Shown here piece by piece: positions 13,587 through 20,306 of a stretch of DNA of 64,000 nucleotides. The DNA is from Fistulifera solaris (taxonomy: Eukaryota > Bacillariophyta > Bacillariophyceae > Naviculales > Stauroneidaceae). Within the stretch, counting starts at the first letter, position 1, and each line of letters begins with the position of its first letter. Both the position numbers and the translations under genes were made by a program. The stretch covers positions 1,388,132 through 1,452,131 of the forward strand of contig AP026130.1 in NCBI GenBank assembly GCA_030295235.1, given 5' to 3'. A model generated the notes under the pieces. The model was not told the DNA's origin. It made no database searches and saw nothing but the letters and a program-made list of their open reading frames with translations.

Positions 13587-13594
13587 TATTTTTT
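13587..13594. repeat. Left target-site duplication TATTTTTT
   Basis: The eight bases immediately outside the left terminal inverted repeat. The same octamer follows the right terminal repeat at 18689..18696. The sequence is low in complexity, so a chance match is possible, but the register against both TIR ends is exact. Confidence 0.65.
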
Positions 13595-13619
13595 GGCAGT
13601 TGAACCATGCTGGTGGACC
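13595..13619 (+). repeat. Left terminal inverted repeat (25 bp)
   Basis: Perfect reverse complement of 18664..18688. It begins GGCAGTTG and ends GGTGGACC. Similarity stops abruptly after the 25th base. Confidence 0.9.
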
Positions 13620-13996
13620 TTTTTGGACCGTACGTCGTCCGATTTACATAGGAAAACGACATGCCAGAGCGACATTGCCATCCAAATACTTTTTGGATCC
13701 AGCCAATCAGATGGCTTACATCCAAAAAGTCGAGCCAATCCAGCCAATCACAAGCGTCCCATCCAAAAGAGACTTTTAGCCGTCTGCTAGTTTTCCGCGT
13801 TGAGCAATCGATAGCCTACCGGTACTCACTGTACAGTAAATCGAGGTTTAACCTTAAGCACTCTCAATGTAGCTGGCCAAAAGAATGCATCCGTTCCAAT
13901 TTTTGGCCGATAATTATTTCTGCAAAAGAATGACATCGGCACAAACGAGAATAACTCGTCTCATCTTTTCGATTGCAAAGTTATCACACGAAAAGA

Positions 13997-16900
13997 ATGC
14001 CAGGAACATCAAAAAGAGGTCGGGGCCCCGACAAAGTCCAGCGAAGTCGCTCGTCAAACAAAAAGATTAGTTTGAAAAGATGGAGCTCGAAAAAGCAAAG
14101 AGAAAAGAGCAAGCTAGTGTGGATGCCACGTCCGCTGTAATGCACTCTTTTTTAGGCATAAAGGTTCCCGAAAAGGCCACCCCTGTAGAAGAAGAAGTCT
14201 GTGAAGATGTTGACATGACTGGCGAAGAACTAGAAAAGCAATTTACTGAGCGTCTTGTGATCGATGATACAACAGGTCAACCTGGCGACGTCGGCGTCGG
14301 CGATGATGACGACGACGCTCTTGGCTTCCGAGGGAAGACGGGGACTATAATGAGGATAGCAATGAGTTGAACGACGGCCGGCATCATGTCAAATTATCTT
14401 TCTAAGATTCAGACGAGGCTGAGAGATGAAACGCGTTGTCACTTCAAAAGGGGAGACGAGAAAATTCCTGACGATCAGAAATGGCTTCTGAAAATGCTTG
14501 AGGAGCACCAGTTCTCTCTTCCGTGGCAGCTTGCTTCAACACTGTGCAACAAGCTTGGGATAAATTCGGCTCCTTCTGCGTACTATTGCACTGTACATGT
14601 GTGGTTACCAGATGTCCAATTCAACAAAATGCCACCTTGCGGAGAATGCAAGTCAAATGCCCATGTTGGTCGTCATGCATTTGATTCCAGTTATCCTGGG
14701 CTGCCGATATCTGGCTTAAAAAAGGACGAGAATGCGTTATGACAATGCGGTATTGTTGTTCGAGGTGCAAGAGCGGAGAAAAGTCCTACACGTTTCGCGG
14801 ATACAATCTGAAAAGTTTGGAATTGATGCCGCTTAGTCGAAAGATTTGCTTCCCGGCTCTCTTAACGCACAAAAGCGGGGTCACTATGGAGCTAGCTCGA
14901 CTCGTTCGCTCACTTGTATCGAAAAATGTGCGTTCGAATTCTCTTGCTGCAATAATTGCGGAAATGCACCAGCTCGAGCACAAGCAGCAAATGTTGCTCT
15001 ATGAGTTGGAGGTAGCAGCTTCGCTTCTACCCGAACAGATGACAATAAAGCACCATTGTTTAGCGACTTCAATGATCGGAAAGGATACAATGGCCGATTG
15101 ATTACCGGGAAGTACATTCAGAGCATCTATCAACGCCTCATTCACTCCTTCCGGGAACTGGCTGACGACACGAAGAAGAGGGATTCTGAGATGATTAAGA
15201 TTGACGCATCTTATAAATTCTGAGGCGTTTGAAACGGGTTGGCGGCGAAAGTGTTTGATGGTCTAGTCACAGTGATGAATGAATTTAAAGAGATTCGTTC
15301 GCATTTTGTAATCTTTGGAGAGAGCCACGACCAGATGCGGCCGCCGCTACAAGCCATGAAGGCGACAATGGATTCAAATGGCCAAGCCGGCCCCAAACTT
15401 GCTTTCACTGACAGCCCCAAGCGAGACGGCCGACATGCTTATTTCCGTTTTCGATTCCTTGGCAGTAACTCAAGAGGCTTATAATACAATTGCAGAGGAG
15501 GAAAATAAGCAGCTAGGAGACAAGTCGGAACCCACTGAGTTGCTCAAGTCAGCATGGCAACGTCTTCTCACGACCGTCGCTTCCAATCTGTTCGATTAAG
15601 CATCATAATTATTCAGTTATTGAGGCTGATAAGGACATTACAATGTTTGCAGGAACCGCCATGGATCTGATGAAAGACAGGCAGGCAGAAAAGCGTATCA
15701 TGGCGCTTGATCTTGAATGGCCGGTCCACTTCAATAACAACGGTCGCATCAAAGGACAGGGAAAAGTTGCGACCATACAATTGTCATATCACACCTGTCA
15801 GGGCAACCTGGATAACGACATTTGTACTACAGTCATTCGCGTTCAACAGACAACAACTAAATTGAATGCAACACTTGTGCGTCTACTGAGCGAAGACTCT
15901 ATCCGATTTGTGGGTGTGAATGTTGCTGGTGATGTGACCAAGCTAAAAAAAGATTTCGCCAACATGAACAATGTGTCTGTAAACAAGATTGACTTGAGGG
16001 TCATGGCAAGGCGTCGTGGTGTTGTGCCACGGAATGGATCGTATAGTCTTGTTGCACTAGTCGAAGCCCAGCTGAAGGAATCGATGGAAAAGGATCAGAG
16101 AATGTCCGATTGGTCGGGTCCACTACAACCAAAACAGCAGGACTATGCCGCCTTAGATGCAATCAAAAGTCTGCAAGTATACGATTCTCTCGATAAACTG
16201 CCAGATTTAACAAGGGAACTTCAGCAAGGAGATTTTAGCTGGAACTAAGGTCACTATTGTTGCAAGTAAGGGCAGTAAGGCATCCATTCCGACGCCCGGT
16301 GCAGAGGGGGAGATACTTTCTCAAAAACAGATCTGGACAGCACCAAAAACATTTACATTCGTTGAAGGCCGGAAGCAAACCAGGCGGTCAATTTGTACTT
16401 GTTCGAATTAAAAGGTTCTGGCGCCGGGCTTGATAATGGATGGTTATAGGAAAGGCAGGAAAGGTGTCTCGCTGGGAGATTTTGTAAAAACCTTTGCAGA
16501 TGGCGATTTCGTGATGATGGTTAATCTTTCACAGTTGCGCTCTCAGCACCAGCAGGAATCATCGTCCAGCTCATCAGACGCTATCAACCCGAATCCGGTG
16601 ATCCATACTACAGAGCTCAACGAGGTGAATGCGAGTATAGTGAACGCTGACAACGAAACAGCTACAACGACCGGTTTCGCGAGAAGATGATTTGTTTACC
16701 CACGATTACATATTTGAACACGAGAATGAAGAAGATATCAGCCCTGATCCTGATTCTACGGATGCTTTTGACGACTTCTCAGAACTTACCCCTGCTAAAA
16801 TCCGAGAAATCGATGATATCATAAGGCGCGGTCGATAAGATGGGCCCTCTTACTGCACAGGACGGAGAAAAATACCTGGATCCGCCGCCGAAATCGATAC

Positions 16901-18439
16901 CGATTTGCTACTCCGCTGTGCTCGGAGACATTATACACGCAATTATGCGAATAAAGGTTCCAGCAAAGCACGAATGCCGCAAAGCTTACTCTGCTGCGCT
17001 TGTACGAGCGTTTTTAGAATGGGATCCTGAACGGTTAAAAGAGGTCAAAGAAGCATTGGTCAAATTAGGTGTTTCCGAAAGGAGATAGAGGCACGATTGT
17101 ACTACAACATACAGTGGTTCGCAGCATGTGTCGGCGAGCCCTTCCTCCGCATCTCCTTTATTGGCGTGTTCGTGCCGTTCTATCATACTTTGGCGACAAA
17201 ATCGACAGCGTGTCCAAGAAGCCTCTCTTCGGAAAAAATGAATGGAACAAGGCCAAAAGTCTGCTCTCCGACATACGGAAAGGATATTATTCCGACCCAC
17301 CCGGTGTATCATTCTACCGATATAGAGTGGATGGTCGGGGACAAATAATTCGCGACCGGAAAGGATTTGCGCTTCTTACGTGTACCAGAGGAACAAACGA
17401 TGTCGAGAACGAACATAGGAATCTCCTTGGGCCGATCGGAAACTCGCCAGTGGGACTTGAAATGATGGACTGTCTTTTGACCGATATACGTCTCCGAAGA
17501 AACATGATTTCAGCCCGAAAGTACCGACTGAACTTTCCAGACATTCGACATTTTGATCCCTGGTTAGTAGACGAATTACAGATTCACGGGTAGAAGAGGG
17601 TCGCAAAGTACTATTGTACCCGAACTGGATAAACTCATGTGATCTTGCAGAGACCCCGGAACGTTTTGGTTTCGTCGGTCTTCCCAGATCAGAGCTGACC
17701 GACGCAATAAATGAACGCGCTGCAACAATTGAGAACCTTGAGAATTGTGTTATCGAGAAACGTCTTTCGAAAGACATGCAGTATATAGCCAAATGCATTG
17801 GAACAAAATTGCCGTATCAACCTTTTTCGACTGCCGAGGAAATATCGATGTACGCACAACTGCGAATCAATGTAACCGAAAATCAACGAATCAAGCCAGA
17901 TGACCCGAACTTTGAGCTAGCTATTTGTCATGCCATTGTACCCCGTGTCGATGGAATTCGGATTTTTCCAAAGACGCCCCATTTATGTTCGGCAAATGGA
18001 AAAGAGATATCTTGAGAGGAAACGGATAGGCTCAGCCGTGAAGTATGTACAGTGCATTGGACGCACTCAGTAGTCTGAATGAAGCCACATCTACCATAGC
18101 AATCAACGCTTTGTCCGCCTCAAATGCATTGCAGAGCGGTGAACATATCGAAAAGGACGACAGCACCCAGATGCGAAAACTCTGCCCTCCTATCTTGCTG
18201 CCGAGACCAATCTTCGGCGTGAGTGGAAACATGATACAACGGGCGTGAATCTGTACCAATCGCACAGAAAAGGCAAAGCCGACCCCCAAAACGTGGCCGG
18301 TGTGGATAAGAAACCACGTCAAGGAAGACATTGCAAAACTTGTAAGCGTCCACTTGCCCAATGCCCTGCTGCCGCAGTAAGTAAGTCGGCTAAAAGGGTG
18401 TGCACTTACATCGAAAACACAGAAGCACAACAAATATAA
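13997..18439 (+). pseudogene. Transposase-like protein: DUF6729-like region, DDE core, DEDDy 3'-5' exonuclease
   Basis: One protein of ~1,450 residues recoverable across about fifteen frame breaks. In order: a basic start (MPGTSKRGRG), an acidic stretch, a Cys-rich DUF6729-like region (CGEC..CCSRC, then FPALLTH), and an RNase H-like core with Asp in KIDASYKF (15203) and Asp in AFTDSP (15410). A DEDDy exonuclease follows (ALDLEWP, GVNVAGDVTKL, YAALDAIKSLQVY). Next come RAVLSYFGDK and RGTNDVENEHR, whose Glu (17404) could complete a DDE triad, then HFDPWLVDE and a Cys-rich tail (CKTCKRPLAQC). From memory, fungal and protist proteins share this whole order. Breaks include single-base gains and losses, some outside homopolymers, so true decay is likely in part. 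Terminal repeats make it the element's own gene, and transposase function is inferred. Confidence 0.8.
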
Positions 18440-18663
18440 TCATTAATGGCTGCATGTTAAATAAAAATATCGTTTCAATTTTCATTGACGTATTCCTAAC
18501 ACTGGCGGCATTCCTATGATGCAAATCGTGGACTTTACTGAAGGTCCCGTGAGGGTCGCTACCGCACTCATCGTGTACATAGAGACTACTATCTCGGAAA
18601 GGGATAAAGCATTTTTGCGTCTGAAGTCGCTCGCTCCGCTCGCGACTTTTAAAATTTCCAAAT

Positions 18664-18688
18664 GGTCCACCAGCATGGTTCAACTGCC
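18664..18688 (-). repeat. Right terminal inverted repeat (25 bp)
   Basis: Perfect inverted copy of 13595..13619, ending CAACTGCC on the plus strand and followed directly by TATTTTTT. Confidence 0.9.
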
Positions 18689-18696
18689 TATTTTTT
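18689..18696. repeat. Right target-site duplication TATTTTTT
   Basis: Octamer identical to 13587..13594, directly abutting the right TIR. The run continues with a further T, so the exact length could be one more or less. Confidence 0.65.
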
Positions 18697-18866
18697 TGTT
18701 CCGTGTTCTTTTTGCACAGTTCGCTCTCACGACGATAAGGAAGTGTGAAAGTGATGGTCATTATTGTTACAAAGTCTTCATCATTAAACGCATAACTTCT
18801 CCCTCGTTTCATTCACTGATCTTCACAGCTCATCTTTCAACTAAAACGAACGAAAGAAATAGGCAA

Positions 18867-20306
18867 ATGGACGAAAAACTCTTGAATAACCATCTCGAAG
18901 GAGACGAGTACTTTTTACAAGAACAACACGGCAATTTGCTTTCCCCGTCGCCTCTTTTGACAGTACGAACTGATGTATCTTATCCAAATACACAAGAAAA
19001 ACCCGCTCGTGCGTATCGCAATCAAGGAGCGGCTTTGTTATTTCTGATGCACATGGCGGTCGTTTTTTATTGCGCTTTACAAGGAGGATGGCCCGTCGCC
19101 GTCGAACAACGATTGTTGGGTCTTTTGTTCCTCACAGGATGCACGGCTGTCGCTCTTTCGACAATAGCGTGGTATGCTATGACGCAGTATTCACAACACT
19201 TTGTTGTCGTGGCGTTAAGTTCGACTTTTGCGGGGCATTTCTTTGCTGCCGGTGTCTTGATTTATTTTCGTTGGTGGTCGGGTGTGCTTCTAGCTATCGC
19301 ATTTGCCGCGGTTACGTTAATTTACTTACGGACTGTATGGGATCGGACGCATGTAGCGGCAGCACAGTTGCAAGTTGCGCTGCAAGCCATTGAACGTAAT
19401 AAAGCAGTGCTGTCCCTGACCTATTTCATATTACTTTCACTGCAATTGTGGGTGTTGATATGGCTCATGGCTTGGCTAGGATTTTATAATTTGACTTATG
19501 GAGAAAACTGTTCGGATAATAATGACAACGACGATCAAGGCTATTACTGCATAGTTCGATTGGGAGGACATGGTGGTGTTCTATTTTTCTTTTGGCTGTC
19601 TTTTTTCTGGACGACTCAAGTCCTCCGCAACGTGTTGCGTGTGACCGTAGCAGGTGTGGTGGGCTCTTTTGTCTGTCGTCCCGAATATCCAGCGGTAGGG
19701 GAAGCGTTTCGGCATGCAACGACGTCTTCCTTTGGTTCAATATGCTTCGGAAGTCTTCTGACGGCATTAATTCAAGCGTTGTATCAAATTTGCCGCATGC
19801 TTCAGAGGACGTCATCTTCCTCATCAGGAAACTTTCTCGTTTGCATCGTCGACTGTATTGTGGGGTTTTTAGAGCGACTAACGGTTTACTTCCACAAATG
19901 GAGTTACATCTACATTGGCCTTTATGGGGACGACTACTTAACCGCAGGACAGAATGTGCTGCAACTTTTTCGGGAACGTGGTTGGGATACGATCATTACC
20001 GATCAACTCGTTGTAAGAACGCTGCAGTTGTTTGCGACAATGGTAGGCGTTAGTACAGGTGCAGTTGCACTGTTGATGGGGCCGTCTTTGCATTGGTCGA
20101 AACTTGTTACATTTGCTATACCGGCGCTACTGGGAGGAACTCTGTCTTACATTTTATTTCTCAGTGTCGTCGGAGCGGCTGTAGACTCCATCATAGTTCT
20201 CTTTGCGGAAGCGCCGCTCGAACTCGAGCGAAATCATCCAGGGCTCTATCGGCAGATGGTAACAGCTTGGTCCCAGCTGTATCCCGACGAATTCCGTGCC
20301 CCCTGA
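18867..20306 (+). CDS. Choline transporter-like protein (SLC44/CTL/PNS1 family)
   Basis: Uninterrupted 479-residue polytopic membrane protein. The start is the ATG in AGGCAAATGGACG. The frame is open further upstream into the transposon, but that stretch is not protein-like. A polar ~60-residue N-terminus precedes about nine to ten hydrophobic segments. CTL hallmarks are visible: ATTSSFGSICFGSLLTALIQ in the conserved C-terminal half, then YIYIGLYGDDYLTAGQNV and a final LYPDEF. Family members move choline or related substrates across plasma or organelle membranes, and plant and fungal roles are less settled. The TIR element ends 178 bp upstream, so the promoter is probably interrupted or replaced. 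It is convergent with the carrier gene ending at 20573. Confidence 0.88.
   Translation: MDEKLLNNHLEGDEYFLQEQHGNLLSPSPLLTVRTDVSYPNTQEKPARAYRNQGAALLFLMHMAVVFYCALQGGWPVAVEQRLLGLLFLTGCTAVALSTIAWYAMTQYSQHFVVVALSSTFAGHFFAAGVLIYFRWWSGVLLAIAFAAVTLIYLRTVWDRTHVAAAQLQVALQAIERNKAVLSLTYFILLSLQLWVLIWLMAWLGFYNLTYGENCSDNNDNDDQGYYCIVRLGGHGGVLFFFWLSFFWTTQVLRNVLRVTVAGVVGSFVCRPEYPAVGEAFRHATTSSFGSICFGSLLTALIQALYQICRMLQRTSSSSSGNFLVCIVDCIVGFLERLTVYFHKWSYIYIGLYGDDYLTAGQNVLQLFRERGWDTIITDQLVVRTLQLFATMVGVSTGAVALLMGPSLHWSKLVTFAIPALLGGTLSYILFLSVVGAAVDSIIVLFAEAPLELERNHPGLYRQMVTAWSQLYPDEFRAP

Follow-up and report, generated by a model that had tools for sequence, protein, structure and literature searches.

A 5,094-bp element in the genome of Fistulifera solaris is most probably a Dada-type cut-and-paste DNA transposon, belonging to the branch with an exonuclease inside the DDE core and having terminal inverted repeats (TIRs), 8-bp target-site duplications and insertion sites that are not aimed at small RNA genes. 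The element spans positions 13595–18688 of the 64-kb stretch of DNA analysed here (the window). It has defined ends, flanking duplications, internally deleted derivatives and sister chromosomes from which it is absent, and the DDE, DxxH and DEDDy residues are conserved in its protein family. We rate this family as a TIR-bearing, exonuclease-bearing Dada-type lineage with protein relatives in five diatom genera.

The boundary features of the window copy were as follows.
13587–13594, unstranded: left target-site duplication, TATTTTTT, exact match to 18689–18696
13595–13619, + strand: left terminal inverted repeat, 25 bp, perfect, also found at the ends of further copies
18664–18688, − strand: right terminal inverted repeat, 25 bp, reverse complement of the left end
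18689–18696, unstranded: right target-site duplication, TATTTTTT, exact match to the left flank

An earlier note made from the letters of the window had described perfect 25-bp inverted ends and an 8-bp flanking match, and both were confirmed at the correct coordinates. The two ends are reverse complements with zero mismatches, and the arms lengthen to 29 nt at 97% identity when the pairing is extended. Shuffles of the window gave a mean of 0.00 matching end pairs with up to three mismatches allowed. The flanking match was exact, and 8-mer pairs drawn at random from the window matched at a rate of 7e-5, a value that applies to the average 8-mer, T-rich words of the TATTTTTT type being commoner than average.

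The 25-bp end occurred nine times in the host genome (51.7 Mb, 61 contigs) at three or fewer mismatches, compared with no occurrence of the reversed 25-bp pattern in the same search. A genome query with the left 106 bp returned 17 rows, all of them left ends except for one right end. Two further full-length copies lay head to tail on contig C39 (7272–12358 and 12366–17450) and were 96–97% identical to the window copy over the whole length. The gene is present in three copies in the host genome, all with the same ends, identical over 25 bp. In addition to the full-length copies, at least seven internally deleted copies carried related ends; the one on C30 measured 1,202 bp, and the others retained at most approximately 190 bp at the left and, in copies with an identified right end, 50–70 bp at the right. 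Two end types were distinguished, GGCAGTTGAACC and GGCAACCAC, the latter being a variant carried by several deleted copies and seen only on elements without the gene.

Duplications were tallied for the 10 of 16 copies in which both ends were readable; L014, L016, L019, L020, L022 and L023 were left out as cut or unclear. Five of the ten had an exact 8-bp duplication, namely, the window copy (TATTTTTT) and the copies on C30 (GAAAAAAA), C3 (AAAAAAAC), C2 (GTTTGGTG) and C9 (GGTACTGG), and two others (C39b and L018) had an 8-bp duplication with one mismatch. A 7-bp flank match was found in C39a and L013a, both members of tandem pairs, and a flank match was absent in L013b (one of ten); the flank values for C39a/b and L013a/b come from head-to-tail pairs. 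Insertion sites were A/T-rich in about six of the ten copies.

Fistulifera solaris has been described as an allopolyploid (PMC5935921), and its paired contigs fit this description, with divergences of 10, 16 and 21% for C11/C12, C30/C31 and C38/C39, respectively, in the stretches compared. Sister chromosomes without the insertion are present at three loci. C12 is the sister of the contig that holds the window; there, genes from both sides of the element align and the element is absent, and 329 bp lie between the aligned flanks, as against 316 unaligned bp plus the element on the window contig. The alignment of the right flank on C12 reaches within 4 bp of the junction, and the left intergenic part is too diverged for base-by-base alignment. 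On C38, the sister of C39, the flanks adjoin, one target-like sequence is present and the element is missing, and on C31 the deleted copy of C30 is absent, with 83 bp between the aligned flanks.

A pairing of the ends by chance around a host gene is hardly credible. The low copy number of the gene (three) is the sole point for it; the other copies, which share the ends and show 8-bp duplications, refute it, and the 0.00 expected end matches and the sister chromosome without the insert speak against it as well. The earlier note had proposed a genome search with the 25-bp end and an alignment of the copies, and had named gene copies lacking these ends, or an end pair unique to this site and without an empty-site allele, as contrary to its reading. 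The search gave nine occurrences versus none for the reversed control, the aligned copies had shared ends and mostly 8-bp duplications, three of three gene copies carry the ends, and sisters without the insert exist at three loci. Its link between this protein family and a mobile TIR element was thereby upheld.

The gene and its predicted features, all on the + strand, were placed as follows.
14080–18436, + strand: transposase gene, broken in the window copy (16-piece read-through; likeness to protein P0001)
14638–14771, + strand: N-terminal CCCC zinc region (C-x2-C then C-x2-C), DUF6729-like (motif placement, Pfam)
15197–15220, + strand: predicted first catalytic Asp (D1), KIDASYKF (D in 44 of 44 homologs with a residue there)
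15404–15427, + strand: predicted second catalytic Asp (D2), FTDSPKRD (approximately 70 residues past D1 in homologs; D in 47 of 48)
15643–16248, + strand: DEDDy 3'-5' exonuclease, WRN type (201-aa open frame; Pfam DNA_pol_A_exo1, 1.6e-11)
15706–15720, 15922–15936 and 16144–16167, + strand: exonuclease motifs D/E, D and Y/D, respectively (motif placement)
16921–16941, + strand: DxxH motif, LGDIIHA (H in 55 of 55 homologs, D in 52 of 55)
17387–17416, + strand: predicted catalytic Glu, RGTNDVENEH (E in all 54 homologs that cover this column)
18332–18403, + strand: C-terminal four-Cys cluster, C-x2-C-x6-C-x12-C (such a cluster in 36 of 55 homologs)

A single gene filling the element had been claimed previously; its extent (14080–18436, + strand) stood, whereas an intact gene did not, the reading being interrupted by stops and frame changes that required 16 pieces for a read-through. 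The closest protein was FisN_19Lh006 (P0001) of F. solaris, a predicted protein of 1,187 residues with 91% identity over 80% of the query, and its gene model may skip the breaks. The 86 private substitutions of the window copy included 25 A-to-G, 14 C-to-T, 12 T-to-C and 9 G-to-A changes, and decay of the gene mainly through C-to-T mutation was set aside in view of this spectrum. Private indel events and private substitutions numbered 25 versus 86, 32 versus 31 and 18 versus 15 in the three copies, the two kinds of counts being taken from two different alignments. Given these counts, the share of indels was taken as high, and the broken frames may be partly assembly error.

The combination put forward in the earlier note, that is, a DDE-type core with a Cys region resembling DUF6729 and a DEDDy exonuclease of the WRN type, was found both in the element's own gene and in its homologs. 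Three protein searches yielded 55 relatives (P0001–P0055), several of them partial. The family has the order CCCC zinc region (DUF6729), D1, D2, DEDDy exonuclease, DxxH and E. The distance between D1 and D2 was 70 residues in 39 of 43 homologs, and that between DxxH and E was 161 residues in 44 of 54. The exonuclease D/E/D/Y/D residues were invariant across homologs with a residue at those columns, and the exonuclease was assigned to the WRN family by both profile and fold. Likewise, the four N-terminal Cys columns held Cys in every homolog with a residue there (38–39 of 55). In 35 of 38 homologs the second Cys was separated from the third by 34 or 35 residues (C-x2-C-x34/35-C-x2-C), and the last of these Cys lay 143–179 residues from D1. 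In the 36 of 55 homologs with the C-terminal cluster, 16 had the form C-x2-C-x10-C-x8-C.

In the Pfam scan, which covered 32 near-complete proteins out of the 55 at E ≤ 0.1, both DUF6729 and DNA_pol_A_exo1 were matched in 32 of 32, in agreement with the DUF6729 link proposed earlier. The DUF6729 match in the window piece (E 3e-4) was under the curated cut-off, as were those in P0001 and P0002. The RNase H-like domain of ZSWIM1-3 was matched in six of the 32 homologs (best E, 0.0029), and no other transposase domain, a hAT domain included, was among the matches of these 32 proteins at that threshold. These results bear on a further reading, in which the TIRs are owned by another transposase (e.g., hAT) and the exonuclease gene is a passenger. 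The two end types, with GGCAACCAC confined to gene-less elements, and the duplications of approximately 8 bp given by P and hAT elements (PMC3706591) are in its favour, but the gene holds a full DDE–DxxH set and fills the element, its three copies all have identical ends, and the 32 scanned homologs bear no transposase domain at E ≤ 0.1 beyond the ZSWIM1-3 match. We consider this reading very unlikely.

Only seven of the 55 relatives were from named organisms, and all seven were diatoms of five genera (Fistulifera, Skeletonema, Thalassiosira, Cyclotella and Discostella). A repeat protein search from the first alignment gave four matches, each already known. The three protein searches named no relative from fungi or Ectocarpus, so that the fungal relatives mentioned in the earlier note did not surface; this absence says little because two of the searches scored only the roughly 8,000 candidates with most words in common. 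In a scan of species genomes, a single distant relative turned up, on a contig of 7 kb assigned to a bacterial MAG. Its best segment was 25% identical, and D, D, the exonuclease, DxxH and RGTN..E were retained as read by eye in the translation; a TIR-like pair was absent among 25 of the 31 inverted-repeat pairs of this contig. The TIRs of the exonuclease-bearing family are observed in one genome, that of F. solaris. The scans of viral contigs found neither a relative nor the exact 25-bp end, and a viral origin, being without support, was set aside.

In the whole-model fold search, the matches listed were only exonucleases, polymerases with such a domain and Egalitarian-BicD entries. The core was therefore folded separately. 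In its predicted fold, the D1–D2 piece resembles the cores of integrases and transposases, at modest Foldseek scores, and its best match was the ISCth4 transposase (PDB 6xgx), which we take to be of the IS256 family. The ISCth4 transposase is bacterial and small and, to our knowledge, has no exonuclease. Dada is itself stated to resemble IS256 (PMC3706591), in line with this match. No hAT chains were among the matches listed in the core fold searches, a result that excludes nothing.

The element thus characterised appears to be built, and would be expected to work, like an exonuclease-bearing Dada. The zinc regions would bind the TIRs, and the DDE core would cut the ends and join the element's 3' ends to the target with an 8-bp stagger between its strands. 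The exonuclease may trim 3' ends arising during transposition, as Kojima and Jurka suggested for the processing of cleaved 3' ends by the Dada exonuclease (PMC3706591). Its substrate would more likely be the donor break than the element's own ends, because the ends stay exact in full-length copies; their identity over 25 bp in all three argues against free trimming of the element.

If the element is of the Dada type, it would suggest that small-RNA targeting is not general in the Dada group, which has been singled out by the absence of TIRs (PMC3706591) and by insertion into small RNA genes (2013 and 2022 descriptions). TIRs, 8-bp duplications and unaimed insertion would also bring Dada nearer to hAT, P and MuDR. 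With the ends of an exonuclease-bearing element exactly defined, the role of a 3'-5' exonuclease inside a DDE core can be tested on a known substrate, and a function is suggested for DUF6729 and for diatom proteins labelled hypothetical or 3'-5' exonuclease.

Among other DNA transposons, hAT elements bear TIRs, and we know of no exonuclease insert in them. Like the diatom element, they have duplications of approximately 8 bp and the C/DxxH motif, which is described as shared by the group of hAT, P, MuDR, Kolobok and Dada. KolobokD, likewise a DDE transposon of this group, carries a DnaQ-like 3'-5' exonuclease (PMC9587614). However, its exonuclease is described as DEDDh (TREX/ERI1 type), in contrast to the DEDDy (WRN type) of the diatom family with its YAA(L/K)D motif, and Kolobok duplications are given as TTAA (4 bp), whereas those of the diatom element are 8 bp and none is TTAA.

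The closest likeness lies with Dada. In the 2013 description, the Dada transposases of Laccaria bicolor (Dada-1_LB and Dada-2_LB) and Ectocarpus (Dada-1_ES) have a DEDDy exonuclease placed after the second D and before DxxH, and its authors placed such elements within Dada (PMC3706591); a 2025 Ectocarpus survey counts 15 copies, one of them intact, in its one Dada family. Dada-U6_DR has Cys residues at 389, 394, 429 and 432, catalytic residues D567, D635 and E811, DxxH past the second D, a C-terminal CCHC and a weak HHpred likeness to retroviral integrases (PMC3706591). The diatom family, compared through these printed descriptions rather than by sequence alignment, shares the large single protein, the order of CCCC zinc region, D, D, DEDDy exonuclease, DxxH and E, with DxxH between the second D and E of the triad, and the weak resemblance of the core to retroviral integrase. 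Relative to Dada-U6_DR, the gap between the second and third Cys (34/35 vs. 34) and the D1–D2 distance (70 vs. 68) are close, and the last Cys lies 143–179 rather than 135 residues from D1. The first Cys pair differs, being C-x2-C rather than C-x4-C, and Cys stands in place of His of the Dada C-x2-C-x9-H-x8-C in 36 of 36 diatom clusters. Given that this domain order was printed in 2013, the protein gives no support to the undescribed, distinct superfamily that the earlier note had proposed. Our literature search found no paper on DUF6729, and among the matches listed for Dada in diatoms, only a white-rust genome paper uses the word Dada.

The ends and targets set the diatom element apart from printed Dada families with definable ends, a contrast drawn with these families rather than with the Laccaria and Ectocarpus elements. 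Such families are described as lacking TIRs, with 6–7-bp duplications and small-RNA-gene targets (PMC3706591), and a 2022 survey of fish Dada likewise gives duplications of 6 or 7 bp, with many elements aimed at small RNA genes; the diatom element has perfect 25-bp TIRs, mostly 8-bp duplications and no small-RNA-gene target. No tRNA was detected by ARAGORN in the window and 17 loci, and no Rfam family at the gathering score in the window and three loci and then in nine loci, both searches being run without a positive control. The differing end and target features, together with the retention of the motifs in at least 55 exonuclease-bearing members, of which the seven named ones are diatoms of five genera, would suit a separate superfamily sister to Dada, marked by TIRs, by duplications of 8 bp and by a DDE core that an exonuclease splits; the Laccaria and Ectocarpus members might join it. 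We regard such a superfamily as unlikely, as the domain order, the DDE–DxxH set and the N-terminal zinc spacing agree with printed Dada and the 2013 authors kept exonuclease-bearing elements inside it. It is doubtful, too, that the family forms a deep sister superfamily of Dada in diatoms, with TIRs and 8-bp duplications, whose Werner-type exonuclease, lodged in the DDE core, acts in transposition, and for which DUF6729 is the DNA-binding zinc region, as it would be in related transposases. The family may formally belong to Dada, but its ends and targets differ from those printed and the comparison is by description. For the preferred Dada-type reading, what is new relative to the 2013 description (PMC3706591) is the TIRs, the duplication of 8 bp and insertion without a small-RNA-gene target, on a protein plan that was already known.

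Beside the window insertion lies a gene with a PF04515 match, whose listed open reading frame starts within the right end of the element:
window 18516-20306, choline-transporter-like gene
Comparison with the sister contig, C12, placed the likely start codon ca. 180 bp downstream of the element's end; the sister copy of the gene on C12 is without the element.

Elsewhere in the host genome, copies of the element were found in head-to-tail pairs, 7 bp apart, at two loci:
contig C39, 7272-17450, first head-to-tail pair
contig C11, 545000-549000 (locus L013), second head-to-tail pair
The copies in one of these two pairs were 99.4% identical. In the two full-length copies on C39, private indel events were about as numerous as private substitutions, and several private indels in the three full-length copies fell at CG-rich spots. 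These indels could possibly represent unpolished long-read errors in repeats.

A variant end, GGCAACCAC..., was found on the deleted elements at loci L013, L015, L017 and L018 and partly on that at L021, with target duplications mostly of 7–8 bp. No gene-bearing counterpart carrying this variant end came to light.

Among the relatives of the transposase, a 1,922-aa protein with the same motif order was encoded on a contig of a Rhodobacteraceae metagenome-assembled genome (L042, JAHDDY010000130.1); this contig is probably eukaryotic contamination. Another relative (P0055) carried an Ulp1-type peptidase domain (PF02902) in addition to DUF6729 and the exonuclease. All 32 relatives scanned with Pfam had a DUF6729 match (PF20499), which lay at or adjoining the N-terminal zinc region wherever the match range was inspected. 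DUF6729 may be a DNA-binding region of transposases.
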